NCBI RefSeq assembly: GCF_003402535.2
Contig: NZ_AP025171.1
Location: forward strand, 2,046,001-2,110,000
Reading direction: 5' to 3'
DNA: 64,000 nucleotides
From: Cupriavidus sp. P-10
GTDB taxonomy: Bacteria > Pseudomonadota > Gammaproteobacteria > Burkholderiales > Burkholderiaceae
The number at the start of each line of letters is the position of its first letter. The first letter of the stretch is position 1. Positions 7,274 to 52,472 of the stretch are shown here, in pieces. The notes beneath the pieces are model-generated. The model saw nothing but the letters and a program-made list of their open reading frames with translations. It did no database searches and was not told the origin of the DNA. The translations under genes were made by a program, and so were the position numbers.

Positions 7274-7288
7274 TCCCGTAATATGGGA
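7274..7288. promoter_or_regulatory. Regulon palindrome copy 1
   Basis: TCCCGTAATATGGGA: 7-1-7 inverted repeat with one mismatch. It lies in the 385-bp gap between the Bug gene ending at 7438 and the leftward HIBADH gene, so it most likely controls HIBADH and ALDH. It matches seven other copies in the window. Confidence 0.75.
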
Positions 7289-7437
7289 TTAATGTATGAT
7301 CTCGAAGCGCGAAATGACGCACATCCATAAAGTGGCATACAGGAGGCAGCGACGTCCCTGCAGATCCAATAACGGCCTACATGCCTCCACAAGCAAAATC
7401 GGCGACCACAAAAAGCACCGACTTGCGGACCTTGCTG

Positions 7438-8412
7438 CTATTGCTTGGGAATGCCCAGATCGCTGATCAGCTTGGCCGCCTGTACGGTTTCGCGCGCAAG
7501 GAACTGATTGAACTGGTCAAACTTCATGTCCATCACTTCGGCGCCCTCATCCTTCATCTTTTGCTGTAGCTGCTTGCTCATCACCGCCTGACGAAGTGCG
7601 TCGTGGAGCTTTTTGACGATGTGGGGTGGCGTGCCAGCAGGCGCAAAGAAGGCAACCCAGGTGTACGCACTGTAGTTTGCGATCCCCATTTCAGCGAAGG
7701 TTGGCACGTCCGGTAGCGCGGCGACGCGATGCTGAGCCGTTACGGCTAGCGCTCGAAGTCGCCCGCCCCGCACGTTGGGCGCGGCACTCGCTACGGTGTC
7801 GTACATCATATCGACACGACCACCGATGACGTCAGGAACCGCGGGAGCGTTCCCCTTGTATGGGATGTGGTTGACGCGCAGTCCAGCTTGCTGCAAGAAG
7901 CGCTCTGTGGCCAGGTGGGGGGCAGTGCCAACACCCGCGGAAGCAAAGGTGAGCTTGCCAGGATTCGCTTTGGCCCGTGAAATAAAGTCGCCGAGCTTCT
8001 TGTCCGGCTGGCTGATACTCACGACCATGAGAAACGGTGATCTGCTGACCGGCCCGACACCAATGAAGTCTTTGCCCAGGTCGTAGCCGGCATCGATGCG
8101 CAATGCCATCTGCTGGGTAATAGTGCCGGTAGCGGCGAGCAGTGTGTATCCATCCGCTGGTGCAGCCTTGGCTGCGCGAATGCCGATCAGCCCGTCGGCA
8201 CCTCCCTTATTCTCGATCACCACAGGCTGCCTTAGATAGACGGCCATCTCTTGTGCCGCAACTCTGGCCATCGCATCGGTAAAGCCGCCCGCCGCGGTGT
8301 TGACGATAACCTTAACGGGGCGGTTTGGATAAGGGTCGGCGGCAACGGCTGGCGCGCCGCTCCCTAGCATCAACATGAGCACCGCAGCGCGGCGGGCGAG
8401 ACCTACTGGCAT
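7438..8412 (-). CDS. Bug-family tripartite tricarboxylate transporter substrate-binding protein
   Basis: A 324-residue periplasmic receptor of the Bug/TctC family: signal peptide with hydrophobic core AAVLMLMLGSGAPAVAA, then the family opening PYPNRPVKVIVNTAAGGFTD and later VVIENKGGADGLIG and LPDVPTFAEMGI. ATG 8412 is preferred because it is preceded by GGAG and puts the signal peptide at the N-terminus; longer in-frame starts add an implausible basic extension. Bug proteins bind carboxylates or amides and feed a TctA/TctB pair or act as sensors; no TctA or TctB gene is present in the window. It is the last gene of the leftward Bug-ALDH-MmgE-Bug-GMC-Bug operon, 91 bp after the GMC gene. Confidence 0.93.
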   Translation of the reverse strand: MPVGLARRAAVLMLMLGSGAPAVAADPYPNRPVKVIVNTAAGGFTDAMARVAAQEMAVYLRQPVVIENKGGADGLIGIRAAKAAPADGYTLLAATGTITQQMALRIDAGYDLGKDFIGVGPVSRSPFLMVVSISQPDKKLGDFISRAKANPGKLTFASAGVGTAPHLATERFLQQAGLRVNHIPYKGNAPAVPDVIGGRVDMMYDTVASAAPNVRGGRLRALAVTAQHRVAALPDVPTFAEMGIANYSAYTWVAFFAPAGTPPHIVKKLHDALRQAVMSKQLQQKMKDEGAEVMDMKFDQFNQFLARETVQAAKLISDLGIPKQ

Positions 8413-8503
8413 ATTGTCTCCAGAGCTGTGAGGTTTGATTGAGTCTCTATTGTTTGATGGCGATTGATTTAGTTGCCGCATCCTTTGGCTCCGAGGTCGA
8501 GCA

Positions 8504-10150
8504 TCAAAGCGCGTGTGCCACTTCAGGGTTGGCGACACATCCATCATGCTTGGCCAAGATCATGTCCGCACATTTCTCCCCGATCATCATGCACGGCACA
8601 CTGGTGTTGCCCGAAATGATGGTCGGCATGATGGAGGCATCAGCTATCCGAAGCCCCTCGATGCCGTGCACCCGCAACTGCTCATCGACAACGGCCATGT
8701 CGTCGTGCCCCATCTTGCATGTGCCAACTGGATGAAAAGTGGTGGCGCCGGTTTCGCGAATAAAGTTCAGGATCTCTTCATCGCTCTGGATCTGTATGCC
8801 AGGATGAAGCTCCTCGGCAATAACATCGGCTATCGGCCTGGAGGCGGCAATCTCCCTCGCCTTCCGTACAGCAGCCACCGCAGTCTTGCGATCATTCTCC
8901 GTGTCGAGGAATCTATAGTTAATCGCCGGAGGTGCGAAGGCGTCGGAGGACTGAATATGCGTGCTTCCGGTGCTTTCTGGGCGTTGCACCTGAGCGTAAA
9001 TGAAGAACCCATTAGTGTTCGACATTCGCCGCTTCTGATTCTCGATCTCTAGCAGGAACGGATTGATCAGCAAGCCGATATCTGCTTGCGCCGCCACCTG
9101 TTCGCTTGACCGTGTAAAGACGCGCAGCGTGGCGACGCCCTGCGAGATGAACCCAGAACGGAACAGGGCATAACGGGCGACTTCGAGCAGCAGGCGCCAC
9201 CCTCGACCGCGGCCTGCCAGGGAGAAGCCTCGCCGCTTGAACGCCCACTTCAGGGTTGGTCCATAGTGGTCCCTCATATTCTCGCCAACGCCAGGCAAAC
9301 GCTTGACGACCTTGACGCCGTGGCGCGCGAGAATGCTCGGATTCCCAATGCCGGACAATTCCAATAGCTTCGGGGAGCCGATCGCGCCGGCACAGACGAT
9401 CACTTCTTTGGTCGCGTAAATTTCCTGTGCCTCACCGCGGTAATGAAGTCTTACGCCGCGGCATCGCAGACCGTCCAGAATCAATGAGGTAACTTCGGCG
9501 CCGGCCAGGATAGACAAATTCTTCCTGGCTGCCGCCGGAGCCAGGTACTGAGTTGCAGTGCTTTGGCGCAGCCCCCGGTAGATCGTCTGCTGTGCCATCG
9601 CCACGCCGTATTGGCTTTCCCCACTGTAGTCAGGGTTGAGCGGGTAGCCTACCGCCTGCGCCGATTTGATAAATAGGTCGAAGAACGGTGATGTTTTTGC
9701 AGCCTGCGTGACCTTCACCGGGCCATTGCGTCCCCGGTACCGGTCTGACCCGAGTTCTGTGCTCTCGATCCTCTTGAAGTACGGAAGCACATCACGATAG
9801 GCCCAACCCCTGCAGCCAAGCTCTTCCCACGTATCGTAATCCGTACGCTGTCCACGGTTGTAGATCATCCCGTTGATAGCGCTCGATCCACCGAGGATTT
9901 TCCCGCCCGGCACATAAATGGAGCGGTTACCGGTGGATTCGTTCGGCGTGGAATGTCGACACCAATTGACGGTCGGATTGACTATGGTGAAAGCCGTACC
10001 ACCGGGCGCCCGTGTCCAGATGTAGCTGGCACCCTTCGTGCCAGCCTCGATGCAGAGAACCCGGTACTTCCCACTCTCACTTAGGCGTGCCGCGACCACA
10101 CCACCGGACGATCCTGACCCGACCACAATAAAGTCGTAGCTTGCCGACAT
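8504..10150 (-). CDS. GMC-family FAD-dependent oxidoreductase (choline/alcohol dehydrogenase-like)
   Basis: The 548-residue enzyme has the FAD Rossmann motif VVGSGSSGGVVAARLSESG at the N-terminus, the GMC signature around GGSSAINGMIYNRGQRTDYD, and the C-terminal catalytic His in FHPVGTCKMG and Asn in SGNTSVPCMM. ATG 10150 (MSASYDF) follows a purine-rich GGAGATGGGAGA site and is preferred over ATG 10174. It should oxidise a primary alcohol to an aldehyde with FAD, passing electrons to the quinone pool or oxygen. It sits between two Bug receptors and downstream of an ALDH on the same strand, which fits an alcohol-to-acid sequence. Confidence 0.93.
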   Translation of the reverse strand: MSASYDFIVVGSGSSGGVVAARLSESGKYRVLCIEAGTKGASYIWTRAPGGTAFTIVNPTVNWCRHSTPNESTGNRSIYVPGGKILGGSSAINGMIYNRGQRTDYDTWEELGCRGWAYRDVLPYFKRIESTELGSDRYRGRNGPVKVTQAAKTSPFFDLFIKSAQAVGYPLNPDYSGESQYGVAMAQQTIYRGLRQSTATQYLAPAAARKNLSILAGAEVTSLILDGLRCRGVRLHYRGEAQEIYATKEVIVCAGAIGSPKLLELSGIGNPSILARHGVKVVKRLPGVGENMRDHYGPTLKWAFKRRGFSLAGRGRGWRLLLEVARYALFRSGFISQGVATLRVFTRSSEQVAAQADIGLLINPFLLEIENQKRRMSNTNGFFIYAQVQRPESTGSTHIQSSDAFAPPAINYRFLDTENDRKTAVAAVRKAREIAASRPIADVIAEELHPGIQIQSDEEILNFIRETGATTFHPVGTCKMGHDDMAVVDEQLRVHGIEGLRIADASIMPTIISGNTSVPCMMIGEKCADMILAKHDGCVANPEVAHAL

Positions 10151-10218
10151 TCTCCCATCTCCATGATTGCCCAATGATGTGCGTGCACTGCCGTGGCATC
10201 CACTCTTCGAGTGGTCGC

Positions 10219-11193
10219 CTATTCGTCACTCTTGATGTTGTTCTCCTGCACGACCTTCTTCCAACGTGCAGCTTCCAACTTCAGGTGGGCCTTCGCATCC
10301 TCAGGATTGCGAGTCTCCGCGGCGTAACCGAGCGCCGCCAGCCGCTTGCTGGTCGCCGGATCGTTGATAGCTTTGGCATACGCATCATGCAAGCGCGCCA
10401 CCGTTTCTTTCGGCGTCGCGGACGGGACCATGAACGTGTACCAGACAGATGGCGAAAAATCGGCCAAGCCCAGTTCCGTCATCGTTGGAACACCGGGAAA
10501 GCTCGGCATTCGTTTCTGCGACGTAACACCAAGAACGCGGATCTTGCCTGCCTGCATCAGGGGCAGCGCCTCCGCTGTGGTGGTGAACATGAATTGGACT
10601 TCGTTTGCCAGCAAAGACTGGATTGCATAGGCGTTGCCGCGGAATGGGACATGCATGCCATTGCCACCGAGATCCCTGAGCATGCGCACCGCGGTAAGGT
10701 GCGCGAGGGTTCCAGGTCCTCCCGAGCTATAGTTCAGCCCCCCTTTTGCTTTGGCTGCAGTGGCGAGATCCTGATACGAGCGGAGTCCGGAATTAGCGTT
10801 GACCACCAACGTCATCGGGAACGAGCCGGTACCGATCACTGGCTGAAGATCGCGCTCCGTGTTGTAAGGCAGGTCGTTTCGCATAAGGCCGGCAATCAAG
10901 CCGGAAACTGTAAACTCCAGGATGGTGCAGCCATCCGGCTTGGCGGCAGCCACCACAGCATTGCCAATCGTGGTGGTAGCACCGGGGCGGTTGTCAATCA
11001 CGACGGACTGTCCCAGAATCTCGGTCACTTTTGCGCCAATGATTCGCCCAACCGTGTCTCCCACACCCCCCGGCGGTTGCGGGATAACCATCTTCATGTA
11101 TCGATCCTGGCACGGACTGCCGGCAGTTGCATGACCAATGCCAAGTATCGCCATCACCAGGATACCCATCACCTTTGCACTTCCAGTCATCAT
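10219..11193 (-). CDS. Bug-family substrate-binding protein
   Basis: A 324-residue TctC/Bug receptor: signal peptide (VMGILVMAILGIGHATA), the ligand loop KMVIPQPPGGVGDTVGRIIG, VVIDNRPGATTTIG and MPSFPGVPTMTELGL. The start at ATG 11193 has GGAG a few bases upstream; the ATGATG doublet leaves the start uncertain by one codon. Unlike the usual PVKIVVPF opening it reads RYMKMVIPQPPGG, and the mature N-terminus carries a lone Cys (SPCQDRYM), so it diverges from its neighbours and probably binds a different ligand. It is in the middle of the 15705-7438 operon, 68 bp before the GMC gene. Confidence 0.92.
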   Translation of the reverse strand: MMTGSAKVMGILVMAILGIGHATAGSPCQDRYMKMVIPQPPGGVGDTVGRIIGAKVTEILGQSVVIDNRPGATTTIGNAVVAAAKPDGCTILEFTVSGLIAGLMRNDLPYNTERDLQPVIGTGSFPMTLVVNANSGLRSYQDLATAAKAKGGLNYSSGGPGTLAHLTAVRMLRDLGGNGMHVPFRGNAYAIQSLLANEVQFMFTTTAEALPLMQAGKIRVLGVTSQKRMPSFPGVPTMTELGLADFSPSVWYTFMVPSATPKETVARLHDAYAKAINDPATSKRLAALGYAAETRNPEDAKAHLKLEAARWKKVVQENNIKSDE

Positions 11194-11376
11194 CGTCTCC
11201 TCATCTTGTCGTCCAGCCGTTCCAGGCATCATCCGTTTGCCTGCAGCGTGTGACCGCTCTCCATCGGCAAGCCTAAATCGCCGATAACGGCAGCAACGTT
11301 TTCTTCCGTTGCCCTTCATCCATGAAGGCACAACTGAATCCTTCCAAGCATTACGCGTGAGGCGTCGTGCGCGGCA

Positions 11377-12756
11377 TCAGCCCAAGGCTTCCGAGAGTTC
11401 CGCCACATCCCCGAGCCCCTCAAGTCGCGAAATCAGATCCAACGCCCGGTCGACTTTCGATTCTGTGAGCGGAACCGCCGCGGCATTGGCACAGTCCCGG
11501 AACTTCGCTGCCAGGGAGTCCCAACCCATTGGCGCCTCCGGACTACCTGGCACCTTGTGGCCCAGTTGCGAGAACGTGTGCCCGTCTCGCGTAACGATCT
11601 GTACCCGTCCCACCGCCACTTTTGCCTTCCGCTCAGCACTCTCGTCGTCGACCGCGACTACGCGCGCTGCCATCGCGCGGACGTCGCCGGCCCGTAATGC
11701 CTCGGCAGTGAAATCGCTGAGCCTGATCTCCCCATGCATGGCGGCAAGAGCAATACAGAAGGGAAGGCTGAATTTGGCATCCACGGCAGTTTCCGGCGCA
11801 CGGCGTCGTTCCACCGGCACGCACATCTGCTTCTGGCGCTGCGCCACGAACACCTGAATTTGCTCGATGTCGTCAGCGACGAGCCTGTGCCGCTGCATCA
11901 GTTCCGTGGTGGCGTGAATATAGGTGTGAGCCAAGCCGACGACTGGCCATGGCTTGTAAAGCATATCGGCACCGAGGTAGTCCTCTCCGAGCTCTGCGAG
12001 CATTCCCTCGCGGTCGTAGTCTTGCCGGAAATAGGTCGGAAGAATTCCCCCTCTTCCCTCGAAGGCATCATCAATACCAGTCAGCCCCTTGTCCGCCAAC
12101 AGCGCAGCAATGACGGCAGCCTTGGCACTGAATCCGGCATACATGCCGCGCAAATGACTGCCGCCGTAGATCAATTGCATGGTTCCGCTGGACTGCATGC
12201 TGGCAATGCCAAGCGCATGCGCAGTCTGCGCGGCGCTCAAGCCAAGCACCTGTGCAGCGCCCGCGGCCGCGGCAAACACCCCCATCACGGTGGAGACGTT
12301 CCATTCATGATCCTGCAGCACATTGCACCGTAGCCGCACGAAGATGTCCTGTCCCACAGCGATCGCCGAAATGAGCCGCTTGCCGGAAATGCCACCCTTT
12401 CGCTCGGCAAGCGCAAGCACCGCGGGAATAAGGGAGCTTCCCGCATGCCCCCCCCAGGTTGTCCGGTCATCGAAATCCAGACAATGTGCCAACGCACCAT
12501 TGACCAGTGCCGCCGATGCCGCGGGGAGGCGGCCTCCGAACCCTAGCAGCAGGCTCTCAGGCTTGCCTCCGCTTTCTCGTGCGAGCGCCACCACGCTGCG
12601 CACCGATGGCTCCAGTCCGCTTGCCGCGAGAATGACACCCAGAGTATCGAGAAGGCTCTTCTTCGCAGTGTCCGCCGCTTCGGCAGGCAGGCCTTCATAG
12701 TGGGTGCTGGCGACGTGGCTGGCAAATACATCGCAAAGGTCCTTGGATGGTTGCAT
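11377..12756 (-). CDS. MmgE/PrpD family protein
   Basis: A 459-residue member of the MmgE/PrpD fold (2-methylcitrate dehydratase, cis-aconitate decarboxylase, iminodisuccinate epimerase). Visible hallmarks are KKSLLDTLGVILAASGLEPS near residue 30, ALAHCLDFDDRT with the conserved Asp pair, HAGSSLIPAVLALAERKGG, and the later KPWPVVGLAHTYIHAT. It should act in the cytoplasm on a di- or tricarboxylate by proton abstraction (dehydration, decarboxylation or epimerisation). It lies between an ALDH and a Bug receptor in the same operon. It resembles the copies at 23619 and 47779 more than the one at 40529. Confidence 0.92.
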   Translation of the reverse strand: MQPSKDLCDVFASHVASTHYEGLPAEAADTAKKSLLDTLGVILAASGLEPSVRSVVALARESGGKPESLLLGFGGRLPAASAALVNGALAHCLDFDDRTTWGGHAGSSLIPAVLALAERKGGISGKRLISAIAVGQDIFVRLRCNVLQDHEWNVSTVMGVFAAAAGAAQVLGLSAAQTAHALGIASMQSSGTMQLIYGGSHLRGMYAGFSAKAAVIAALLADKGLTGIDDAFEGRGGILPTYFRQDYDREGMLAELGEDYLGADMLYKPWPVVGLAHTYIHATTELMQRHRLVADDIEQIQVFVAQRQKQMCVPVERRRAPETAVDAKFSLPFCIALAAMHGEIRLSDFTAEALRAGDVRAMAARVVAVDDESAERKAKVAVGRVQIVTRDGHTFSQLGHKVPGSPEAPMGWDSLAAKFRDCANAAAVPLTESKVDRALDLISRLEGLGDVAELSEALG

Positions 12757-13006
12757 GACTTCGTGACTCTATAGTGGTATGCGGCCGGCCTCTGAGCCAC
12801 CCGGCAAGGCGATCGGCCGCGCCTGTTTTTGCGACCTGGCGCGGCGCCATCACTGGCATGCTGGGCGATCTGCCAGATGGGGCGTCCGGCGCTATGCTGC
12901 GGATCACCGAGCAGTGATCGACAGTCCGTCTGCTCGTTGTGTGGCACTGCGATGACGCAGAACTCTCCTATCGGCAGCGCCACTGAACATTCCTGTGAGG
13001 GAAGTC

Positions 13007-14518
13007 TCAGAAGAAGACTTGCACCGATTTTTCCTCGGTATATGAGTAGAGTTCCTCAATCCCTCGCTCGCGTCCCACTCCACTATTCTTGTACCCGCCA
13101 AAGGGCACGGCACGGGCGTTCGAGGCCACTCCATTGATCCAGATGTATCCGGTTTGCAGCCGTCTGGCCGCCCGCATGGCGGTTCCGATGTCCTGCGTCC
13201 AGATCGCTCCCGTCAGCCCCAGATCGACAGAGTTCGCCATGTCGATGACTTCGTCCACTTGCGACCAACGCAGAATGGAGAGCACCGGGCCGAAGATCTC
13301 TTCGCGAGCAATCCGCATGTCCTGCGTGACATCTGCGAAGACGGTCGGCTCATACCAAAAGCCTCGTTCGAAGGATGACCCTGCAGGACGGTGACCGCCG
13401 GTCATCAAACGTGCGCCCTCTGCGTGGCCATGCGCGACATACTGTTCGACCTTCTCGAGCTGCGCTTGTGAGATGATCGCTCCCATCTCCGTCGACCACG
13501 AGAAGGGATCGCCTAAACGAATTGCCTTAGCCTTTTCCGTGACCCGGCTGACGACCTCGTCATACACCGCATCGTGCACGAACAAGCGGCTTGTAGAGCT
13601 GCAGGACTGCCCTTGCCAGATGAAATTCATGCCGAGGACCGCTGCATCCGCCACGCGATCCAGCGGCGCGTCGGGGAAGACAATGAACGGGTTTTTTCCA
13701 CCCAGTTCCAGCGATATGGACTTGACCGCAACTTCGGCGGCACCGCGTTGAATGGCCAAGCCAGTGCGCGCCGAACCGACGAATGACAGTCGCTTGACAC
13801 GAGGGTGCTGGACCAGAGCGTTTCCGACCGCGCCATCACCCGTTACGATGTTGACAATTCCTTCTGGAAACACGGCGTTCGCAATCTCGCCGAGCAGTGT
13901 TGACGACAGCGGGCACTGCTCCGAGGGCTTGAGCACGACGGCGTTGCCAGCCATCAACGGAGCAGCTAGCCCATTGACCGCCATCGCCAGGGGGTGATTG
14001 AAGGCCGCGATTCTGCCAACCACACCGTACGGCTCCCGCACCGTATAGTTCAAACGGTCGGTCCGACCAGGAATGGTGGCGCCCTGCAGTTCGTACCCCA
14101 ACCCTGCAAAATAGCGCAATCGCTCGGCGCAGTTCACTACATCGCCGTGCATCCCGGTAATCGAGTTGCCCGAGTCTGCCACTTCAAGCAGGAGCAGGTC
14201 GTTTGCTCTTGCCGCAATGGCATCGGCGAAACGCACGAGATAGGTAGCACGCTCGGCAACCGAAAGCTCCGCCCAGGACTGCTGCGCACCTTCTGCCACG
14301 CGCACGGCCCTGGCAACATCATTGGCGGTGCCTCGCGGAACCCTGCCAATGGTGCGACCATCTGCGGGATTGACGCATTCGATCCAGCCGCCCTCACTCT
14401 CGACAAACTGTCCGCCGATCAGCATCCGGCCAATGTGTGGATGGTCGTGCAAGGAACTGCCCGAGAGCACTGGTCGCACATCCGCCTGCGTCTTTGTTGA
14501 TCCCCGATCTGAACTCAT
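13007..14518 (-). CDS. NAD(P)-dependent aldehyde dehydrogenase
   Basis: The 503-residue enzyme carries all ALDH hallmarks: Asn174 (IAAFNHP), Glu271 (LELGGKNPF), Cys306 (WQGQSCSSTSR), the EEIFGPVLSI motif and the C-terminal PFGGYKNSGVGRERG. The Asn motif is FNHP instead of the common WNxP, a divergence shared with betaine-aldehyde-type enzymes. I chose ATG 14518, which follows a GGAAG site; ATG 14566 is possible. It is the second gene of the 15705-7438 operon, between a Bug receptor and MmgE/PrpD, and would oxidise the aldehyde made by the GMC enzyme encoded downstream. Confidence 0.93.
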   Translation of the reverse strand: MSSDRGSTKTQADVRPVLSGSSLHDHPHIGRMLIGGQFVESEGGWIECVNPADGRTIGRVPRGTANDVARAVRVAEGAQQSWAELSVAERATYLVRFADAIAARANDLLLLEVADSGNSITGMHGDVVNCAERLRYFAGLGYELQGATIPGRTDRLNYTVREPYGVVGRIAAFNHPLAMAVNGLAAPLMAGNAVVLKPSEQCPLSSTLLGEIANAVFPEGIVNIVTGDGAVGNALVQHPRVKRLSFVGSARTGLAIQRGAAEVAVKSISLELGGKNPFIVFPDAPLDRVADAAVLGMNFIWQGQSCSSTSRLFVHDAVYDEVVSRVTEKAKAIRLGDPFSWSTEMGAIISQAQLEKVEQYVAHGHAEGARLMTGGHRPAGSSFERGFWYEPTVFADVTQDMRIAREEIFGPVLSILRWSQVDEVIDMANSVDLGLTGAIWTQDIGTAMRAARRLQTGYIWINGVASNARAVPFGGYKNSGVGRERGIEELYSYTEEKSVQVFF

Positions 14519-14736
14519 CTCTTCCGTATCCTTACAGTCCTTAACATGCGTTTGCCAAGCATCCATGGCGTGACGCCGACGCGCTCAGCGCCAGCACCAT
14601 GCCAGTCGTTTCCTGGTTCTGCGGAATGCCGAAGTGCGCCGCCTCATTGCCCCGGGATTCACCCGCCAGGCCAGCACCGTGCCAGCATTGGTGGCGCATA
14701 GGCGCATTTGAAACAGCCGGGAGCGCGTCCCACTCC

Positions 14737-15771: not shown

Positions 15772-15786
15772 TCTCGTATTATGCGA
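15772..15786. promoter_or_regulatory. Regulon palindrome copy 2
   Basis: TCTCGTATTATGCGA, two mismatches from the consensus TCCCGTANTAYGGGA. It sits 66 bp upstream of the GTG start of the leftward Bug-ALDH-MmgE-Bug-GMC-Bug operon, in the divergent promoter region shared with the cyclase gene. Confidence 0.65.
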
Positions 15787-15936: not shown

Positions 15937-15951
15937 TCTCATATTGCGGGA
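15937..15951. promoter_or_regulatory. Regulon palindrome copy 3
   Basis: TCTCATATTGCGGGA, the right half perfect and the left half with two mismatches. It lies 143 bp upstream of the chosen start of the rightward cyclase/ATPase gene (only 14 bp from an alternative in-frame ATG at 15966) and 150 bp from copy 2, a spacing compatible with paired binding across a divergent promoter. Confidence 0.6.
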
Positions 15952-20374: not shown

Positions 20375-20408
20375 ACCCCGTTTCATCGGACAGATTCGCA
20401 TTGGAATT

Positions 20409-41893: not shown

Positions 41894-41957
41894 AATGCTT
41901 TGGAAGCAGGTCATGCGGGGCCGCAGGCTGACGGGGCTTTTCAGAATGGTTATAATG

Positions 41958-44225: not shown

Positions 44226-44240
44226 TACCGTAATACGGGA
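44226..44240. promoter_or_regulatory. Regulon palindrome copy 7
   Basis: TACCGTAATACGGGA, one mismatch from a perfect 7-1-7 palindrome. It lies between the two leftward SDR genes, 87 bp upstream of the 43314-44138 gene, and is the site closest to the right-arm ideal TACGGGA. Confidence 0.78.
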
Positions 44241-44329: not shown

Positions 44330-45094
44330 TTAGTGGAACGATCGACCGCCATCGGCAGCCAGCGCGGCACCTGTGATGTACGAAGATTCACTGCTGGTCA
44401 GGAACAGAATGGCCTGTGCAATCTCCGCAGCATCGGCCATCCGCTTGAGCGCATAGTTACCCACGTTCCCGCGAAAGCCGTCTGCCATGGGGGTATCGAC
44501 CATTCCCGGACAAACACTGTTGGCACGAATTCGCGGTGCCAGCTCGGCCGCCAGCGCCCGAGTGAGGTTGATTACGCCACCTTTGGATGCCGCGTACGCG
44601 GTGAGTCCGGGGGCGTTTGGCAACAAGCCCGCGGCCGAAGCAATGTTGACAATGGTGGCCGCAGGCTCTTGCGCCATCCACCGCAGGCAGCTTTGCGTAA
44701 CGATGTAGGTGCCCGTGAGATTGACCTCCAGGACTCGCCGCCACGCCGATGCTGGCACATCCCCCACCGGGCTCGAGCACATCACTCCCGCGGCATTGAC
44801 CACACCGTCAATCCCACCCAATACAACGCTGGCTTTTTCGATAACCGCGGCGACGAGTTCCTCGTTGGTGATATCGACTTGATACGGGTGGCCGCCCGTT
44901 TCGCGCGCAATCTCGGCCAGCCCCCCTTCGTCCCGGTCGAGCAGCGCGAGCGATGCACCTTCGCGCGAAAATAGCCGTGCGGTAGCACGCCCGATACCGG
45001 ATGCAGCTCCTGTAATCACAATGCGGCGCCCGCGAAGTTGGCCGCGCGACGTCTCGGTCGTAGATTCATTCATTTCCAAAACGCTGTCTGTCAT
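44330..45094 (-). CDS. SDR-family NAD(P)-dependent oxidoreductase
   Basis: A 254-residue classical SDR: RIVITGAASGIGRATARLFS, DGVVNAAGVMCS, Ser in IVNIASAAGLL, Tyr-Lys in TAYAASKGGVINLT, and end YITGAALAADGGRSFH. ATG 45094 gives this length; ATG 45073 (MNESTTE) preceded by GGAA is also possible. It is the last gene of the leftward operon read from the palindrome at 52458, 53 bp after a Bug receptor. The predicted reaction is oxidation or reduction of a hydroxyl or keto group in the cytoplasm. Confidence 0.92.
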   Translation of the reverse strand: MTDSVLEMNESTTETSRGQLRGRRIVITGAASGIGRATARLFSREGASLALLDRDEGGLAEIARETGGHPYQVDITNEELVAAVIEKASVVLGGIDGVVNAAGVMCSSPVGDVPASAWRRVLEVNLTGTYIVTQSCLRWMAQEPAATIVNIASAAGLLPNAPGLTAYAASKGGVINLTRALAAELAPRIRANSVCPGMVDTPMADGFRGNVGNYALKRMADAAEIAQAILFLTSSESSYITGAALAADGGRSFH

Positions 45095-45147
45095 GGGTGT
45101 TTGGCCCGTGGTGAGTGAATTCGTTATCGAACTTGCAGCGATCGCCG

Positions 45148-46128
45148 CTAGACCGGCGACTGGATCTTGTTCTCCGTGATGACGGTGCGCCACCGGCTAG
45201 CTTCTGCATTGATGTAGGAGTTAAGCGCCGCGCCCGACTTAAGCTCTTCCTGAAACGCCAATGGCTTGAACCGGTTCTGGAACGCCGGCGCATTGACGGA
45301 TCGGGTAATCGCCTCGGCGAGCTTGCCGACGATGTCTGCCGGCGTACCGGCTGGTGCGACAAAGCCATGCCAAAGCGTTGAATTAATGCCGGGAAAGCCG
45401 AGTTCGCGCATTGTCGGCACATCCGGAAGATTCGCCGCACGCTGGTTCGAGGTAACGGCCAAAACCCGCAGCTTGCCCTCGCTTCGAAGTGCCGCCACTT
45501 CGGACGCGGAAGCGAACATCATTTGGGTAAAGCCCCCCGCGAGCGCCTGCAAGCCTTCCGGGTTGTTCTTGTAGGCAACGTCCACCCCTTTACCGTGCAC
45601 CGTGTTAAGAAACATCACAGAAGTCAGGTGGGCGACGGTGCCGACCCCACCGCTGGCAAACGTCACGCCCTCTGGAGATTTCGCCACCGCGATGAGATCC
45701 TGGATGCTATTGAGTCTCGCCTTCGATGTTGCCGAGACGGCCAGCGCCAACGGGAAGCCGCCCACGCCAACGATTGGCGCAAAACTGCTGAGACCGTACT
45801 TGAGTTTGTCTCGCAGAACCGTTTGCACGATGCCAGCGCTGATAAGGCAAAGAATCGTGTAGCCATCCGGAGCCGCCGATGCCACCATGGAGCCCGCGAT
45901 CGTGGTCGACCCGCCACCGCGATTCTCGATGATCACACTCTGCCCAAACTGCCCCGCGATCTCATGGGCTACCGAGCGGCTGATGGCATCATCGGTTCCG
46001 CCCGCTGCATTTCCTACAACGATCCGGATCAGGCGCTCCGGATATGGCGTCCGCGCGAGCGCCGGGTTTAGCATGCCTAATGACATCAAACCGGCGGATG
46101 CACCAAGAAGGCCCCTTCGTGAAACCAT
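45148..46128 (-). CDS. Bug-family substrate-binding protein
   Basis: A 326-residue TctC/Bug receptor. The signal peptide starts VSRRGLLGASAGLMSLGML; the RRGLLG pattern resembles a Tat signal and departs from the Sec signals of its neighbours. The mature part has YPERLIRIVVGNAAGGTDD, VIIENRGGGSTTIAGSM and LPDVPTMRELGFP. ATG 46128 follows AGGAGA. It sits between ALDH and SDR in the leftward operon. The fold and ligand loops resemble the receptor at 10219, so the two modules may share a ligand class. Confidence 0.92.
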   Translation of the reverse strand: MVSRRGLLGASAGLMSLGMLNPALARTPYPERLIRIVVGNAAGGTDDAISRSVAHEIAGQFGQSVIIENRGGGSTTIAGSMVASAAPDGYTILCLISAGIVQTVLRDKLKYGLSSFAPIVGVGGFPLALAVSATSKARLNSIQDLIAVAKSPEGVTFASGGVGTVAHLTSVMFLNTVHGKGVDVAYKNNPEGLQALAGGFTQMMFASASEVAALRSEGKLRVLAVTSNQRAANLPDVPTMRELGFPGINSTLWHGFVAPAGTPADIVGKLAEAITRSVNAPAFQNRFKPLAFQEELKSGAALNSYINAEASRWRTVITENKIQSPV

Positions 46129-46233
46129 GGTGTCTCCTGTTGGGATGCGCGTGGTGGGTGCTGGGTGAATAGCGATCACCCTTCCCCACCGGCGCTCAAT
46201 CCTGCTTTTCGTTGTGTTTTATGAAAAAGTGCC

Positions 46234-47721
46234 TTAGCGCTGCACAAAGGGATTGGCCGGTACACTGGTGGCGGTGGAGATCATGACGCTCTTGGTCTCG
46301 AGGTAATCGTCCACCGCTTCAATGCCGCTCTCCCGTCCGAGGCCGGACTGCTTCATGCCACCGATTGGCACCAGGAAGCTGTACGCCCGGTAGGTATTCA
46401 CCCAGACCATCCCGGCCTTCAACGCTTTCGACATCCGGATTGCCCTGCCGACGTCGCGTGTCCACACTCCTGCTGCGAGGCCGTAGATCACGTCATTGCC
46501 GATGGACACGGCCTCCTCTTCACTGTCAAAGCCGATGATCGACAGCACCGGCCCAAAGACTTCTTCCTGCGCAATGCGCATACGGCTGAAAACGTCGACG
46601 AAAATCGTCGGCTCGACAAACTGACCGACGCCTAGGCCATCGCCACGCGCGGGGTTGCCTCCGAGCACGCAGCGTGCGCCTTCGGCCTTGGCCAGGTCGA
46701 TGTAGTGGAGAACTTTCTCGTATTGAGGACGCGTCGCAATGGGCCCGATGTCAGTGTCTGCCGCCATCGGGTTCCCGAGGCGCAAATGGCGCGCCATCTC
46801 AAGAAGCCGCTCTGTGAACGCCTCGCGGATAGAGTTCTGCACCAGCAGCCGGGAGCCCGCCGTACACATCTGGCCCGCGGCGCCAAAGATGCCGGCGACT
46901 GCGCCCACGCAGGCGCTATCCAGATCTGCATCCTCAAACACGATGTTGGGCGACTTTCCGCCGAGTTCCATCGAAACCCGCTTCATCGTCCGCGCCGCGG
47001 TTTCATACACCTTGGCACCCGTCGTGTCGGAGCCGGTAAATGTAACCTTTGCCACATCCGGATGCTCGACCAGAGGCGTGCCAAGTTCCTGACCAAGCCC
47101 GGTCACCACATTGATGACACCGTCCGGGAGCCCGGCTTCCTTGACCAGTGCGGCAAGCTCCAAAGAGCTTGCCGAGGCAAACTCCGAAGGCTTGAGTACC
47201 ACCGAGCAGCCGGCAGCCAGAGCAGGCGCACACTTGATCGTGAAGAACATCAGCGGCGAGTTCCACGCCGTCAACGCGACCACCACCCCCACCGGCTCAC
47301 GATACGTCATGGCGAGCATGTCAGGCTTGTCCACTGGCAGGACGGCCCCTTCAATCTTGTCGGCGAGGCCGGCGAAGTAATACCAGTGTTCGGGGAGATA
47401 CTTAAGCTGTCCCTGCATTTCGGCAAGGATTTTGCCGTTGTCACGAGACTCGATCTCGGCCAGCCGCCTGGCATGCTCCGGATCGGAAAGCAGATCGCCG
47501 ATCCGGCGCAAGATCCTGCCGCGCTCGGTTGCAGTCATGCTTGCCCATGGGCCTTTCTGCATGGCATCCCGAGCCGCGGCTACGGCACGATCCGCATCTT
47601 CCTTGTTCCCTCTCGGAATTCTGGCCCATACCTCTCCGCTGTAAGGGTCCACCGTATCGAGCCACTCGCCGCTCGCAGGCGCGATGTGTGCGCCATTTAT
47701 CCAATGCTGGTAAGTTTTCAT
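46234..47721 (-). CDS. NAD(P)-dependent aldehyde dehydrogenase
   Basis: A 495-residue ALDH: Asn154 (LTAWNSPLMF), Glu252 (SMELGGKSPNI), Cys286 (AAGQMCTAGSRL), EEVFGPVLSIIGF and the C-terminal PIGGMKQSGLGRESGIEAVD. The GQMCTAGSR context is like that of many aromatic- and terpenoid-aldehyde dehydrogenases, a weak hint. ATG 47721 (MKTYQHWING) is the natural ALDH start; the longer frame adds 17 residues without a ribosome site. It lies 57 bp after MmgE/PrpD and 105 bp before a Bug gene in the leftward operon. Confidence 0.93.
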   Translation of the reverse strand: MKTYQHWINGAHIAPASGEWLDTVDPYSGEVWARIPRGNKEDADRAVAAARDAMQKGPWASMTATERGRILRRIGDLLSDPEHARRLAEIESRDNGKILAEMQGQLKYLPEHWYYFAGLADKIEGAVLPVDKPDMLAMTYREPVGVVVALTAWNSPLMFFTIKCAPALAAGCSVVLKPSEFASASSLELAALVKEAGLPDGVINVVTGLGQELGTPLVEHPDVAKVTFTGSDTTGAKVYETAARTMKRVSMELGGKSPNIVFEDADLDSACVGAVAGIFGAAGQMCTAGSRLLVQNSIREAFTERLLEMARHLRLGNPMAADTDIGPIATRPQYEKVLHYIDLAKAEGARCVLGGNPARGDGLGVGQFVEPTIFVDVFSRMRIAQEEVFGPVLSIIGFDSEEEAVSIGNDVIYGLAAGVWTRDVGRAIRMSKALKAGMVWVNTYRAYSFLVPIGGMKQSGLGRESGIEAVDDYLETKSVMISTATSVPANPFVQR

Positions 47722-47778
47722 CGATCTGTCCAGGAAGCTACATGTGATCAAATTCATGTACGGTCTGTTCAACTGTCC

Positions 47779-49161
47779 TTAGGACAGCGTCTTGACAAGC
47801 GTGTTGGTGCTGTCGAGAAACTCGAGGTGGCGGACCATTTCGGTGGCACTCCGGATCTTGTCCTCACACACCGGCACCGCCGCCACCGAGGCGCAATCGC
47901 GGAATTTTGCGCTGAGGGCTTCCCACGACATCGGCGCTTCGGGACTGCCGGGTACGTTGTCACCCACCCGCTCAAGTCTTCGGCCGTCACGGGTGATGAT
48001 CTCCATACGCCCATCAGGGATCTTCACCTTCCAGTCCAGATTGCTGTCTTCCACCGGGACGACCTTCTGCGCGATGGCAAGTACCTCGGGATCCCGGAGC
48101 GCTGCGGCGCTGAAGTCGGCGATGCGGATCTGGCCGCGCGCAGCGGCCAGCGCCACGCAGAAGGGAAGGCTGAACTTGGCATCGACGAGTGTCTCCGGCG
48201 CCCGCCGGATATCGATAGGGGTGCACATACGTTGGTGGAAGTCCCCCACGAACACGCGGATTTCCTCGATATCGCTGGCATTCAGGCGATACTGCTTCAT
48301 CAGTTCGATGGTGGCGTGGATGTAGGTGTGCACATTGCCAACCGCCGGCCACGCCTTGTAAAGCATCGCGGAACCGAGATACTCCTTGCCCAGGTTTTCG
48401 ACCATCTTCGCCCGCTCGTACTTGCCGCCGAAGTAGACGTTGAAGATCCCTGCCTTGCCTTCGAACAAGTTCGTAATACCCGTGATCCCCTTCTGTGCCA
48501 GCAACGCTGCCAGCACTGCGCCCTGCGCCGTGAAGCCCGCGTACATACCGCGCAGGTCGCTACCGATGCCGAAAATCACTTCCATAGTGCCGCTCGATTG
48601 CATGCTGGCAATGCCCAGGGCATGCGCGACCTGTTCGCGACTGAGACCCAATACCCACGACGCCGCAGCAGCAGCCGAAAAGGCGCCGACCACCGACGAG
48701 AGATTCCAGTCCTGGCGCCATCCCACGTTGCAACGCAGCCGCACGAAAAGATCCTGCCCCAGCGCCACCGCAGTGATCAGATCCCGCCCCGTGATGCCAC
48801 CTGTTCGCTCGGCCATCGCCAACACTGCCGGCACCAGGGAGCTGTCGGGGTGGGCGCCCCATGGCGTCTGATCATCGAAATCCAGGCAGTGCGCCATCAC
48901 CCCATTGGCAAAAGCGGCCGCCGGCGCCGGCACGCGACCGCCGAAGCCCAACACCGAGGCTTCCGGGCGGCCGCCGCCTTCCAGCACGACCTCGGCTACG
49001 CCGCGTACTGCTGGCTCCATACCGCTGCCCGCGAGGATCACGCCCAGCGTGTCCAAGATGGATTTTTTTGCAGCTTCGACCGCCTCGTCAGAAAGATCCT
49101 CATAGCTGGTGTGGACCACATGGCTTGCAAACAGGTGACACAGATCGGTGTCAGGGGACAT
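47779..49161 (-). CDS. MmgE/PrpD family protein
   Basis: A 460-residue MmgE/PrpD protein: KKSILDTLGVILAGSGMEPA, MAHCLDFDDQTPWGAHPDSS, VAHALGIASMQSSGTMEVIF and YKAWPAVGNVHTYIHATIEL. It resembles the copy at 11377 strongly through these blocks (LDTLGVILA, AHCLDFDD, ALGIASMQSSGTM), so those two are probably recent paralogues in parallel modules. The predicted activity is a carboxylate dehydratase, decarboxylase or epimerase. It lies between a Bug receptor and ALDH in the operon under palindrome copy 8. Confidence 0.93.
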   Translation of the reverse strand: MSPDTDLCHLFASHVVHTSYEDLSDEAVEAAKKSILDTLGVILAGSGMEPAVRGVAEVVLEGGGRPEASVLGFGGRVPAPAAAFANGVMAHCLDFDDQTPWGAHPDSSLVPAVLAMAERTGGITGRDLITAVALGQDLFVRLRCNVGWRQDWNLSSVVGAFSAAAAASWVLGLSREQVAHALGIASMQSSGTMEVIFGIGSDLRGMYAGFTAQGAVLAALLAQKGITGITNLFEGKAGIFNVYFGGKYERAKMVENLGKEYLGSAMLYKAWPAVGNVHTYIHATIELMKQYRLNASDIEEIRVFVGDFHQRMCTPIDIRRAPETLVDAKFSLPFCVALAAARGQIRIADFSAAALRDPEVLAIAQKVVPVEDSNLDWKVKIPDGRMEIITRDGRRLERVGDNVPGSPEAPMSWEALSAKFRDCASVAAVPVCEDKIRSATEMVRHLEFLDSTNTLVKTLS

Positions 49162-49294
49162 GGGGATACGGTGGTAGGACAGTGGATAAAAGCCCGGCTC
49201 GCGCCTTCATTTGCATACAAACGGCAGGACGCCGGCAATGGATGCGCCTCGGCATTGCTTGCGATGCCCTCGCCGATATCGCAGTTCTCCTGAC

Positions 49295-50284
49295 TCAGGA
49301 GTCACCGATCTTGACCTTGCCGCGCAGTTGCTTCCATGTAGCAAGATCCTTCGCCAACTGTCGCGCAAATGCCTCGGGCGAGTCGGTGTGCGGCCGTAGG
49401 CTGACCTCGCGCATACGCTGAGCCACGTCAGGCATCGCGATGGCCTTGTTGAACGCTTCGTTGATTCGCTTGACGATTGGCTGTGGCATGCCGGCTGGCC
49501 CCATCACGGCATAGAAGGTGTAGCTGCCGACGGCTTCCAGCCCAGGCACACCGGTCTGCGCGATCGTGGGCAGATCAGGCATCGACTTCAGGCGCTCCGT
49601 ACCTGTCACGGCAATCGGCTTGAGCTTTCCCGCCGTGATCAGGGGCACGGCGGTCTGGACCATGGCCAACACGACGTCAACGTTGCCGGCCATCGCATCC
49701 CGCGTCGACTCGGCCTCCCCCTTGTACGGGATGTGTAGCATGGATGCCCCCGTGAGGGCGATCATGTATTCCATCGCCAGGTGGCTGCCAGAGCCGACTC
49801 CGGCCGAACCATACGTCAGCTTGCCCCGATTGTTCTTTGAGTAGGCAACCAGTTCGCTCATGGTATTGCCGGGCGCCTGCTTGCGCGCAAGAAGGACCGC
49901 CTCGCCGTCAGCAATCATCGCGATAGGCGTGAAATTCTTGACCGGATCATATGGCAAATCGGTCCTGACAGCGGGCCCCTGCACCATCGCACCGGCCGAA
50001 CCCAGCCACAGGGTATAGCCGTCTGGCGCGGCGTGGAGCACGGGCTGTGAAGCCATCAACTCGGAAGCGCCGGGCTTGTTCTCAATCACAACCGGAACTT
50101 TCAGAATCTCGGTGAGCTTTGGCGCCAGCAGTCGTGCCAGACTGTCCATGCCGCCACCCGGGGAATAGCCGATCAGGATCCGGATCGGCTTGGAAGGAAA
50201 CTGCTCGGCCAAGGCAGCACCAGGGACCAGTGCGACAGTTGCGCATAGCCATAGGAATGCGCGGGCGATCTTTGAAGTAAGCAT
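49295..50284 (-). CDS. Bug-family substrate-binding protein
   Basis: A 329-residue TctC/Bug receptor with signal peptide (AFLWLCATVALVPGAALA), the opening FPSKPIRILIGYSPGGGMDS, VVIENKPGASELMASQPVLH and MPDLPTIAQTGVPG. It is the second Bug gene in the leftward operon, separated by 272 bp from the one upstream (50557-51588); that gap holds no gene and only a short AGAGC/GCTCT hairpin near 50464. The large gap might contain an internal promoter, but no copy of the palindrome is there. Confidence 0.93.
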   Translation of the reverse strand: MLTSKIARAFLWLCATVALVPGAALAEQFPSKPIRILIGYSPGGGMDSLARLLAPKLTEILKVPVVIENKPGASELMASQPVLHAAPDGYTLWLGSAGAMVQGPAVRTDLPYDPVKNFTPIAMIADGEAVLLARKQAPGNTMSELVAYSKNNRGKLTYGSAGVGSGSHLAMEYMIALTGASMLHIPYKGEAESTRDAMAGNVDVVLAMVQTAVPLITAGKLKPIAVTGTERLKSMPDLPTIAQTGVPGLEAVGSYTFYAVMGPAGMPQPIVKRINEAFNKAIAMPDVAQRMREVSLRPHTDSPEAFARQLAKDLATWKQLRGKVKIGDS

Positions 50285-50556
50285 TGTCTCGGATTAGTAG
50301 TAGTTGTGTCGGATCCGCGAGTTGCGTTTGCAGATCTGGGTAAAGCCTCCCGAAACGCGCGGGAGCCAACAAGACTGTCCACAACTAACAAGAGCGCCAT
50401 CACAAGCGCGCCGCGCTGGCTAAACCTACTCTCGTCGCGAAACGAAATTGACTAGGGAATTGAGAGCAGCGCTCTTGAGATTGCTCAGACTGGTGTGGCC
50501 ATACTTCGGTACGGCAGGCACAAGAGACTCTAAGCCCCTTTTGCCTGCTCATGCTT

Positions 50557-51588
50557 TTAGTTGGTGATGTTTGCCATCTTGACCACGGGTCGCCACTTGG
50601 CCATTTCAGCTTCCAGTCCCTGCTTGACCTCTGCAGGCGTGGTGCGCTTCGCAGCTTCCACCCCGGCGGCCAGCAAACGCGCCCGCAACTGCTCATCGGC
50701 CAGAACGTCATTCAGTGCCGCATTGACCTTCTTGACCACCTCGGCAGGGGTCCCCTTCGGCGCTGCGAGGTAGTACCAGGTGCCGACCTCTACTCCGGGC
50801 ACACCCGCTTCGGCCATCGTTGGCACATCCGGCAGCGCCTTCGAGCGCTCCTTGGCAGTAACTGCTAGCGCTCTGAGGCTGCCGTCCTTGATACGCGGGC
50901 CGCAAATCAGCGGAGCGCAAAGCTGAAAGGTAATCTGCCCACCAAGGAGGTCATTGAGGGCCGCGCTCTCGCCCTTGTAAGGGACATGCAGCGCACTGGA
51001 CTTGGTGACAAGGCGGAAGAGCTCACCGCCAAGATGCGCCGGGGCCCCGATGCCGGGCGAACCAAACTGGACCTTACCGGGCTGCGTCTTCATGAGATTT
51101 ACCAGGTCCTGCAGGTTGCGAATCGAAGATTGCCCGCGCACCACCACCACAAGATCGATCTTGCCTAGCTTGCCAATGAATTCGAAATCCTTCAGCAGAT
51201 CGAACGGGGTCTTCATGCCCTCGACGACAGAGCTTGCCGCAAGCGCCGCAGTGCCAACCAGTAGCGTATAGCCATCCGGCTTCTCCCGTGCTACTGCGCC
51301 TGCGCCAATCGCGCCACTGGCGCCCGGCCGGTTATCAATGATGAGGCTCTGTCCCAGCTTGCGTCCTAGCTGCTCGGCGACCAGCCGGGAAGTAACGTCA
51401 GTTCCGCCGCCAGCGGTGAAGGGAACCACCAGTCGGATCGGCCGCGACGGATACTCATCTGCGGTTGCTACTGCAGCGCTCAACGACAACATCATTCCGG
51501 TTGCCGCCATCAGCAGACTCCGGGTCAGTTTCTGCTTGAATGTCGTGCTGATGTGAAAAGCCGGCGAACGCCGGTTAAACGTGCTCAC
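50557..51588 (-). CDS. Bug-family substrate-binding protein
   Basis: A 343-residue TctC/Bug receptor: signal region RSLLMAATGMMLSLSAAVATA, then YPSRPIRLVVPFTAGGGTDV, LIIDNRPGASGAIGAGAVAR and LPDVPTMAEAGVPG. The start GTG 51588 is chosen because GGAG lies nine bases upstream; ATG 51606 six codons earlier has no site. Its binding loop VPFTAGGGTD is the textbook Bug form. It follows the VOC gene by 45 bp, so the two are likely cotranscribed from the promoter near 52458. Confidence 0.92.
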   Translation of the reverse strand: MSTFNRRSPAFHISTTFKQKLTRSLLMAATGMMLSLSAAVATADEYPSRPIRLVVPFTAGGGTDVTSRLVAEQLGRKLGQSLIIDNRPGASGAIGAGAVAREKPDGYTLLVGTAALAASSVVEGMKTPFDLLKDFEFIGKLGKIDLVVVVRGQSSIRNLQDLVNLMKTQPGKVQFGSPGIGAPAHLGGELFRLVTKSSALHVPYKGESAALNDLLGGQITFQLCAPLICGPRIKDGSLRALAVTAKERSKALPDVPTMAEAGVPGVEVGTWYYLAAPKGTPAEVVKKVNAALNDVLADEQLRARLLAAGVEAAKRTTPAEVKQGLEAEMAKWRPVVKMANITN

Positions 51589-51633
51589 GTACTTGTCTCC
51601 GTGCATCTCGTATTTGTTGACACAGTTGAGTGG

Positions 51634-52239
51634 TCAGCCGCCCGACTCGGCGATGGACTTAAGGAAGTCGTGCTTGTCCTTGAACCGCAACGCCTTCTGA
51701 TTACCTGCGGCCTGCTCGCACAGTGCCTTGATCTGCGAGAAATAGACGCGCCTGGCAGAGTTCATTGGTACGACCTCCAACATCAGTCCGAGCGCTGGCG
51801 GGGATTTGAAGTAATAGACATCGACCTCGCCAGTCGGCGCACAAATGGAGGCGATCTCTTCGAAGCCCTTCGAAACGAGGTCAAGACGCGCCGCCTCCAT
51901 GTCGTCGGGCCAGAAAGCTATATGGTGTGCCGCGCCGCTGCCAAAGCCTTCATGCATGACTTCGGTATAGATCGACGGCGCATCGTTCCTGGGGCAGATC
52001 AGTTCGATCTGCGTTTCGCCGACGTACGACAAGGCAAGCGACAGATCGACCGGACTGCGCTTGCCCCGGTAGACAAAGTGACGATCGCCCAGTGCATGTT
52101 CGAAAACAACGAACGGCCCAATCTTGAGTTTGTCTGTCCAGACTTCTAGCGCGGCCTCCATGTCTTTCACCAAGAAGGCCAGTTGTAGCTTGCGCCCGAG
52201 GAAGAACGGGCCATCAAAGCCGGCGGGGACTGTGTTCAA
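51634..52239 (-). CDS. VOC-superfamily protein (glyoxalase/epimerase-like)
   Basis: A 201-residue vicinal-oxygen-chelate protein: KLQLAFLVKDMEAALEVWTD in the first beta-alpha-beta unit, then VGETQIELICPRND, AAHHIAFWPDDMEAARLDLV and LGLMLEVVPMNSARRVYF in the second. The His in AAHHIAF and Glu in LMLEVVP are likely metal ligands; family relatives include methylmalonyl-CoA epimerase and glyoxalase-like dioxygenase/isomerase proteins. It is the first gene leftward from the palindrome at 52458. The role may be epimerisation or ring/lactone chemistry; not assignable further. Confidence 0.88.
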   Translation of the reverse strand: MNTVPAGFDGPFFLGRKLQLAFLVKDMEAALEVWTDKLKIGPFVVFEHALGDRHFVYRGKRSPVDLSLALSYVGETQIELICPRNDAPSIYTEVMHEGFGSGAAHHIAFWPDDMEAARLDLVSKGFEEIASICAPTGEVDVYYFKSPPALGLMLEVVPMNSARRVYFSQIKALCEQAAGNQKALRFKDKHDFLKSIAESGG

Positions 52240-52457
52240 AGCTCCACTCCTTTTGCGCCGATTGCCAGCACTGTCGCACAGCGCTCGATCGCGTTAATTT
52301 GTCTCTGTATGTGCGATTAGTTTATACGCATCCTCCAGCCACGGCAAGTTTACGATGAAGGCTGGAAGGTGTGACGACGGCGCTTTTTGCGTCAGATCTA
52401 CATGGGCGCCGGGGTTCTCCGTCACCTACGCACCACATCGGTACGCTTTGACAATGA

Positions 52458-52472
52458 TCCCGCAATACGGGA
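52458..52472. promoter_or_regulatory. Regulon palindrome copy 8
   Basis: TCCCGCAATACGGGA, perfect TCCCG/CGGGA arms. It lies in the 308-bp divergent region between the VOC-Bug-Bug-MmgE-ALDH-Bug-SDR operon (leftward) and the small CMD-like gene plus GMC (rightward). Confidence 0.78.

Follow-up and report, generated by a model that had tools for sequence, protein, structure and literature searches.

The 64-kb stretch of the Cupriavidus sp. P-10 genome analysed here (contig NZ_AP025171.1, positions 2,046,001 to 2,110,000; hereafter the window) carries several runs of catabolic genes, a gene for an IclR-family transcription regulator and eight palindromes of 15 bp, which are probably operators of that regulator. 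Genes were assigned by Pfam scans; the oxidoreductase GMC3 was placed by matches in the PDB (Table 1). The regulator belongs to the IclR family by its matches to PF01614 (IclR_C, 77.6 bits, cut-off 24) and PF09339 (HTH_IclR, 29.2 bits, cut-off 22), obtained in a scan that began at the upstream GTG 42008.

The palindromes had been singled out in a first-pass annotation of the same DNA, and all eight starts given there (7274, 15772, 15937, 19970, 38055, 41958, 44226 and 52458) are exact. They had also been called intergenic, and all are indeed noncoding in our gene list, which leaves 15.8% of the window without genes; an antisense open reading frame (38052-39011, minus strand) of the beta-keto acid cleavage enzyme (BKACE) gene, not counted as a gene, overlaps site 38055. 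The 7-1-7 inverted repeats described are present but imperfect, with six of seven arm pairs in five sites, five in 15772 and four in both 15937 and 41958. On both strands of the window, 23 strand matches with up to three mismatches were found, against a mean of 5.35 in 100 dinucleotide shuffles (standard deviation 2.67, largest 13). A matrix built from the eight sites ranks the same sites 1-8 in the window (15.7-23.7 bits, next score 12.9), and when each site is omitted from the matrix in turn, it ranks between 1 and 10. The LysR-linked operon at 23.6-33 kb and the module at 55-64 kb, in which no copies had been noticed, hold no comparable site: among the 25 best positions listed for either of the matrices used, none comes from the latter and only 27402 (6.2 bits) from the former.

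Table 1. Putative operators and genes of the window (positions are those of the window; ALDH, aldehyde dehydrogenase)
Feature	Position	Strand	Remarks
Putative operator TCCCGTAATATGGGA	7274-7288	.	upstream of HIBADH-like gene; centre 145 nt from the start codon used
Putative operator TCTCGTATTATGCGA	15772-15786	.	upstream of Bug-ALDH-MmgE-Bug-GMC-Bug run
Putative operator TCTCATATTGCGGGA	15937-15951	.	centre 22 nt before start of cyclase-AAA-TPR gene
Putative operator TCCCTTATTATGGGA	19970-19984	.	beside decayed DNA (3' lysR remnant, insertion sequence (IS) elements)
Putative operator TCCCGTATTTCGGGA	38055-38069	.	between Asp-box gene and BKACE
Putative operator TTCCGCAGTATGGGA	41958-41972	.	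on the predicted iclR start point; TATAAT 41951-41956 lies immediately before it
Putative operator TACCGTAATACGGGA	44226-44240	.	in 17-bp spacer of minus-strand promoter match for SDR 43314-44138
Putative operator TCCCGCAATACGGGA	52458-52472	.	in 17-bp spacer of two overlapping face-to-face promoter matches
HIBADH-like gene	6144-7136	-	Pfam
Bug-ALDH-MmgE-Bug-GMC-Bug run	7438-15705	-	Pfam
Cyclase-AAA-TPR protein, 1188 aa	15966-19532	+	Pfam; zinc ribbon, class III cyclase domain, AAA ATPase, TPR repeats
Asp-box-GMC-SDR-porin run	33081-38036		Pfam; Asp-box gene 36783-38036 (-)
BKACE	38133-39014	+	Pfam; proposed regulon target
BKACE + CN hydrolase	38133-39874		Pfam
MmgE	40460-41893		Pfam
iclR, 295 aa	42074-42961	+	Pfam; proposed owner of the operators
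SDR	43314-44138	-	Pfam
VOC-Bug-Bug-MmgE-ALDH-Bug-SDR run	44330-52239		Pfam
VOC (Glyoxalase_4) gene	51634-52239	-	Pfam; heads the VOC run; proposed regulon target
CMD-like gene	52506-52865	+	label of the first-pass annotation, without Pfam match; followed by GMC3; proposed regulon target
GMC3 oxidoreductase	53131-54780		best PDB match 8b7s, 385 bits

The whole genome (9,083,096 bases, 9.08 Mb, in five contigs) contains 41 strand matches (20 + 21) with up to two mismatches at 25 places, nine of which fall in the window, that is, in 0.7% of the genome. These nine are the eight sites and 7851, which falls within a Bug gene and was left out of the operators. With up to one mismatch, five of the six places are in the window, and the binomial probabilities of such clustering are 8e-14 (two mismatches) and 1e-10 (one mismatch). 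A reversed control pattern is commoner genome-wide than the motif (44 + 43 against 20 + 21 matches). Measured against background frequency, the check proposed in the first-pass annotation, the motif is strongly clustered in the window but elsewhere at or below background and not over-abundant genome-wide; its special feature is the clustering, not the abundance. Twelve of the 16 places outside the window were checked for open frames, and nine of the twelve lie inside long frames rich in G+C at third codon positions, while C4:248526, C1:823129 and C3:1222183 are not in such frames or are ambiguous. The first of these (TCCCGGAATACGGGA, L018 8527-8541) is the sole copy outside the window with at most one mismatch; no long frame covers it, and it precedes an Oxidored_FMN gene, with luciferase-like monooxygenases nearby. 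It is kept as a mere candidate, because its flanking sequence has no TTGA at -10. The relaxed pattern TCYCRNANTNYGRGA has six exact matches in the genome, four of them in the window; with one mismatch allowed it was rejected as a genome-wide probe, being too loose (132 per strand against 117 for the control).

Eight similar palindromes could also be a dispersed repeat of the repetitive extragenic palindromic (REP) kind, or chance, and a repeat with a similar core does exist in another genome. In the window, however, the flanking sequence differs from copy to copy, every copy is noncoding in the gene list, and several share a promoter geometry described below, so that a REP-like or accidental origin is hardly credible. 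The repeat in question, CTCTCCCGCANTGCGGGAGAGGGG, occurs at five places of the congeneric genome G009 (L110 9554 and 9713, L111 9073, L112 2060, L113 9372), and these palindromes were rejected as regulon members, being a REP-like repeat with a common core that is unrelated to the regulon.

No close relative of the IclR protein was found in 35 congeneric genomes (the best by E-value is 37% identical), and among 399 genomes of the order only the source genome itself passed E 1e-90. Orthologs with 67-78% identity are present in Pseudorhodoferax sp. Leaf267 (L092), Verticiella sediminum (L093), Caballeronia (L094, L095, L097) and an Alcaligenaceae bacterium (L096). Six plasmid matches were found, of which the two weakest (41.5% and 35.8%) stay outside the locus comparison; the others are from Caballeronia sp. 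NK8 (L106, 75%), Sinorhizobium meliloti (L107, 55%), Paracoccus versutus (L108, 56%) and Sphingobium sp. EP60837 (L109, 46%). BKACE orthologs (63-85%) lie near the iclR orthologs in L092, L094, L095, L097, L106 and L107. L092 has MmgE-Bug-Bug-VOC facing CMD, a BKACE-CN hydrolase stretch reaching through MmgE to iclR, and Asp-box-GMC-SDR; in L107, MmgE-BKACE-CN hydrolase faces iclR; L093 and L096 have little in common with the window beyond iclR and Bug-type genes. The whole looks like a catabolic unit that has spread horizontally.

A search of relatives had been suggested in the first-pass annotation, and a matrix made from the window sites alone does find related palindromes before iclR, BKACE, CMD/VOC or MmgE at IclR ortholog loci. 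Nine loci entered these tests (L092, L093, L094, L096, L082, L106, L107, L108 and L109); L095 and L097 were left out as near copies of L094, and L094 and L106, both from Caballeronia, are not independent. Related palindromes accompany IclR orthologs 46-78% identical to the window protein in beta- and alphaproteobacteria and stand before iclR or partner genes in most loci examined. The best score of the locus has such a position in seven of the nine: in front of iclR in L093, L096, L094 and L082, in the CMD/VOC spacer of L092, in the CMD/Asp-box spacer of L106 and before MmgE in L109. In L092 (20.9 kb) the top four scores all fall in the CMD/VOC and Bug/BKACE spacers, the counterparts of window sites 52458 and 38055. 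Summed over the nine loci, the best score within 300 bp upstream of iclR is 96.7, which none of 3000 shuffled palindromic matrices reached (mean 25.7, standard deviation 11.5, largest 87.7). Counts over whole loci are only moderately above shuffles: there are 41 at 9 bits, where shuffles gave 21.9 (14 of 300 did as well), 20 at 11 bits, where they gave 7.8 (6 of 300), and 9 at 13 bits, where they gave 2.8 (9 of 300).

When a motif was learned afresh from 21 hand-picked ortholog regions, without any window sequence, the best palindrome was TCNCANANTNTGNGA, which ranks the window sites 1-7 and 9 in the 64 kb; rank 8, 21783, lies inside a transposase gene. The statistics are optimistic, because these 21 regions and the 18 ortholog sites of the promoter tests below were chosen after matrix matches and gene maps had been seen. 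Among nine remote IclR homologs (31-37% identity), six show a related palindrome before iclR that exceeds the null 95% value; five of these six have a nearly identical helix and are not independent. In the congeneric homologs in L083-L087, which have the helix SISSAYRYLS, the approximate gene start is closely preceded by palindromes such as TCGCATAATATGCGA and TGTCATATTTTGACA, possibly a sister class of operators.

This recurrence bears on the owner of the palindromes. Another regulator, be it an IclR paralog acting in trans or a LysR protein of the window, might bind them, iclR being just one target; there are 43 IclR_C matches in the whole genome, two genes being split in two, hence about 40 other IclR_C genes, and LysR genes lie at 30751-31686 and 59804-60718. 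Against such an owner, related palindromes recur with the orthologs of this very iclR in other genera, on alphaproteobacterial plasmids iclR is the sole annotated regulator in the 25 kb examined, and the LysR-linked operon at 23.6-33 kb holds no comparable site. In the two annotated orthologous loci (27 and 20 features), iclR is the only regulator annotated. We consider a different owner improbable.

Tyr66 of the window IclR aligns with a tyrosine of 1mkm, which we take to be TM0065, and by this alignment would sit at position 32 of the helix-turn-helix (HTH) domain; a YRY run is conserved in the 18 homologs compared. The residue pattern agrees with Tyr38 in the accessible part of the study of IclR-family operators by Suvorova and Gelfand 2021 (PMC8222616), where a tyrosine at HTH position 32 is paired with G/C at operator positions 10/22 in subgroup iv only. 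The group 1 consensus given there is GKTYCRYW3-4RYGRAMC. Each position of its core, YCRYWWWRYGR (positions 4-14), is matched by 14-16 of the 16 oriented window sites, and the iclR site of L092, GTTCCGCATTGCGAACC, fits the full consensus 17/17. As in group 1, the window palindromes are odd-centred, and the commonest group 1 centre listed in that part of the source, -22 from the gene start, has a parallel in the 22 nt of the cyclase site. The edges differ. The form GKT...AMC with T/A at 10/22 occurs in one of 16 oriented sites; whereas group 1 and the four subgroups listed have T/A at 10/22, the window has C/G in 14 of 16, T/A in one and another pair in one, and its edge TC-11-GA differs from the TGT-11-ACA, GTT-11-AAC, WTT-11-AAW and NGT-12-ACN seen there. 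A tandem second site 18-22 nt away is recorded for 94 ortholog groups, with no requirement for it. Tandem operators at this distance were sought and not found at any of the eight window sites; only 7274 has neighbours 16-45 nt off that exceed the null 95% value of 4.4, one scoring 5.3 at 26 nt and one 4.5 at -45. The link between iclR and the palindromes made in the first-pass annotation thus finds comparative support in the ortholog recurrence, the clustering and the fit to the group 1 core.

Promoters were predicted with a simple in-house score (null 95% value 9.2). At 52458 the operator separates the boxes of both opposed matches, TTGACA 52448-52453 and GACAAT 52471-52476 on the plus strand and TTGAAA 52477-52482 and GATCAT 52454-52459 on the minus strand; at 44226 the boxes around it are TTGAAT and TACATT. 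The minus-strand match TTGACC-17-TAAAGT ends 2 nt before operator 15772, which covers the predicted start point. The TATAAT preceding 41958 belongs to the best promoter match there (13.3), so that the predicted promoter of iclR overlaps its own operator, as expected for autoregulation. Among ortholog iclR sites, those of L094 and L109 overlap the best promoter match, and those of L092, L093, L096 and L082 have no strong match. In E. coli, too, the IclR operator reportedly overlaps the aceBAK promoter, judging by the title of a 1996 report by Pan and co-workers. Site 38055 abuts a -35 box: the operator is followed after 4 nt by TTGACT (38074-38079) and then by GACAAT (38097-38102), and the BKACE geometry is repeated in L092, with 4 nt to TTGACA, the same 17-bp spacer and GACAAT. 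The sequence TTGA[ACT][AT] stands exactly 10 nt before the operator at 6 of 52 oriented sites, against 0.054 expected; the offset was first noticed in the window (3 of 16, 0.017 expected) and afterwards sought in the 18 ortholog sites (3 of 36, 0.037 expected).

When no more than one mismatch is allowed, a composite promoter-operator pattern is found twice in the genome, each time in the window; at up to two mismatches it gives 23 + 18 matches against 11 + 10 for the control. The corresponding values on both strands of nine ortholog genomes or records, each against the control, are 12/15 in G040, 8/18 in G482, 21/12 in G483, 20/7 in G484, 15/13 in G485, 10/6 in W01, 3/1 in W02, 11/1 in W03 and 4/1 in W04. 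The matches gather at the iclR locus only on small plasmids (4/4 in W04, 2/3 in W02), but not in W01 (1/10) or W03 (0/11).

PcaU- and PobR-type IclR proteins act as activators or dual regulators. The same IclR might accordingly own the sites and mainly activate, or repress iclR, CMD/VOC and SDR while activating BKACE, whose operator keeps its place just upstream of the -35 box in both the window and L092. In contrast, the spacer position at 44226 and on both strands of 52458, and the predicted start points at 41958 and 15772, are places where a bound protein would block RNA polymerase, and an activating or dual role seems to us rather unlikely. The ortholog recurrence, the consensus fit and the promoter geometry make the iclR product the probable owner of the palindromes, and promoter occlusion with autorepression its probable mode of action. 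An IclR dimer would bind the palindrome TCYCRNANTNYGRGA, 15 bp long. The operator occupies the space separating -35 from -10 in the predicted CMD/VOC and SDR promoters, lies on the predicted transcription start of iclR and of the Bug-ALDH operon, and adjoins the -35 box at BKACE; with IclR bound, RNA polymerase would be excluded from these promoters, that of iclR included. A pathway metabolite bound to the C-terminal domain would release IclR, and the scattered modules would be induced together. Binding, repression and ligand are what we infer from the sequences.

Several results weigh against occlusion by this IclR, as do its many paralogs mentioned above. Sites 7274 (best 7.9), 15937 and 19970 have no promoter match above 9.2, nor do 12 of 24 ortholog site-gene pairs, and the BKACE operator, upstream of -35, occupies a place open to an activator too. 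Taken singly, the scores upstream of iclR in L107 (equalled by 0.459 of shuffles) and L092 (0.10) are unremarkable. The best score of L107 is at 17441, between paoC and an SMP-30 gene, its MmgE/iclR spacer site ranking 4; that of L108 is at 9307 (21.8 bits), in a stretch without gene assignment, its iclR-upstream site ranking 12. Some good scores fall in coding sequence (in L109, 4227 and 15734; in L106, 35990), and three of the nine remote IclR homologs have no similar palindrome upstream of iclR. Upstream regions chosen mechanically from 17 loci, the nine remote homologs included, gave TCGCATANTATGCGA at width 15 (score 76.9 against 34.8-40.6 in six shuffled sets), which puts three window sites among the first seven ranks and the remaining five at 44-969; width 17 gave TTCNCANANTNTGNGAA, and widths 14 and 16 gave different, A/T-rich motifs.

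The two displaced best matches, L107 17441-17455 (TCTCGTCACACGGGA) and L108 9307-9321 (TCTCATATTACGGGA, preceded by TTGACA), are possible further targets. Site 19970 is flanked on one side by the end of the cyclase gene and on the other by a 92-residue LysR-type 3' remnant (20141-20416; a weak Pfam match, below cut-off), with IS elements adjoining: 20647-22764 holds two transposase genes with rve/HTH_21 and IS110-type domains. No intact target gene was seen beside this site in the window. Scans of the ortholog loci by tblastn gave no homolog of the cyclase-AAA-TPR protein. The 64 kb further contain four MmgE/PrpD paralogs (11377-12756, 23619-25013, 40460-41893 and 47779-49161), at least four GMC oxidoreductases and six TctC/Bug receptors. 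The best PDB match of GMC3 is a chloramphenicol-inactivating oxidoreductase, which suggests an aryl-propanediol-like substrate.

If the proposed regulation is correct, at least five transcription units, which encode uncharacterised enzymes and solute-binding proteins, would form one inducible unit and would therefore serve one pathway; 52448-52482 could be used as a reporter to screen for the substrate, and a variant edge would be added to the IclR operator code. More tentatively, and with doubts of our own, we suggest that a horizontally spread IclR clade of beta- and alphaproteobacteria may run an undescribed GMC/ALDH/SDR/MmgE/BKACE pathway through a fused cassette, TTGACA-N4-TCYCRNANTNYGRGA-AT, with a non-canonical TC/GA edge. 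One window operator would silence two overlapping face-to-face promoters, and a captured cyclase-ATPase-TPR protein might couple substrate sensing to a second messenger.

The first-pass annotation had spoken of a new regulon. We did not find it in the open-licence literature, although its ortholog group may figure in supplementary regulon tables of PMC8222616, but the type is familiar, IclR regulons with palindromic operators being well known. In that literature no paper was found that combines IclR with MmgE and BKACE-type cleavage, with BKACE, or with MmgE, tripartite tricarboxylate and a regulon, and none that links BKACE-type cleavage to GMC and aldehyde dehydrogenase. The ChdR-chd chloramphenicol cluster of Nocardia testacea CS1 (PMC13400229) combines, like the window, an IclR-family gene with genes for a GMC oxidoreductase and for an aldehyde dehydrogenase; unlike the window, it has no BKACE or MmgE among the genes named in the accessible part of that paper, which gives no operator. 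The E. coli IclR operator, TGGAAATNATTTCCA (PMC8222616 and PMC13273656), is 15 bp long and of 7-1-7 form, as are the window sites, but its half-site is A/T-rich in contrast to TCCCGTA, and it belongs to another pathway. PheR of Sphingobium sp. SHPJ-2 (PMC13273656) differs in its pathway and in its operator, a GC-rich 44-bp footprint with an essential GCAACG, but it is an IclR-family repressor of a catabolic operon that is relieved by the substrate, much like the mode proposed here.

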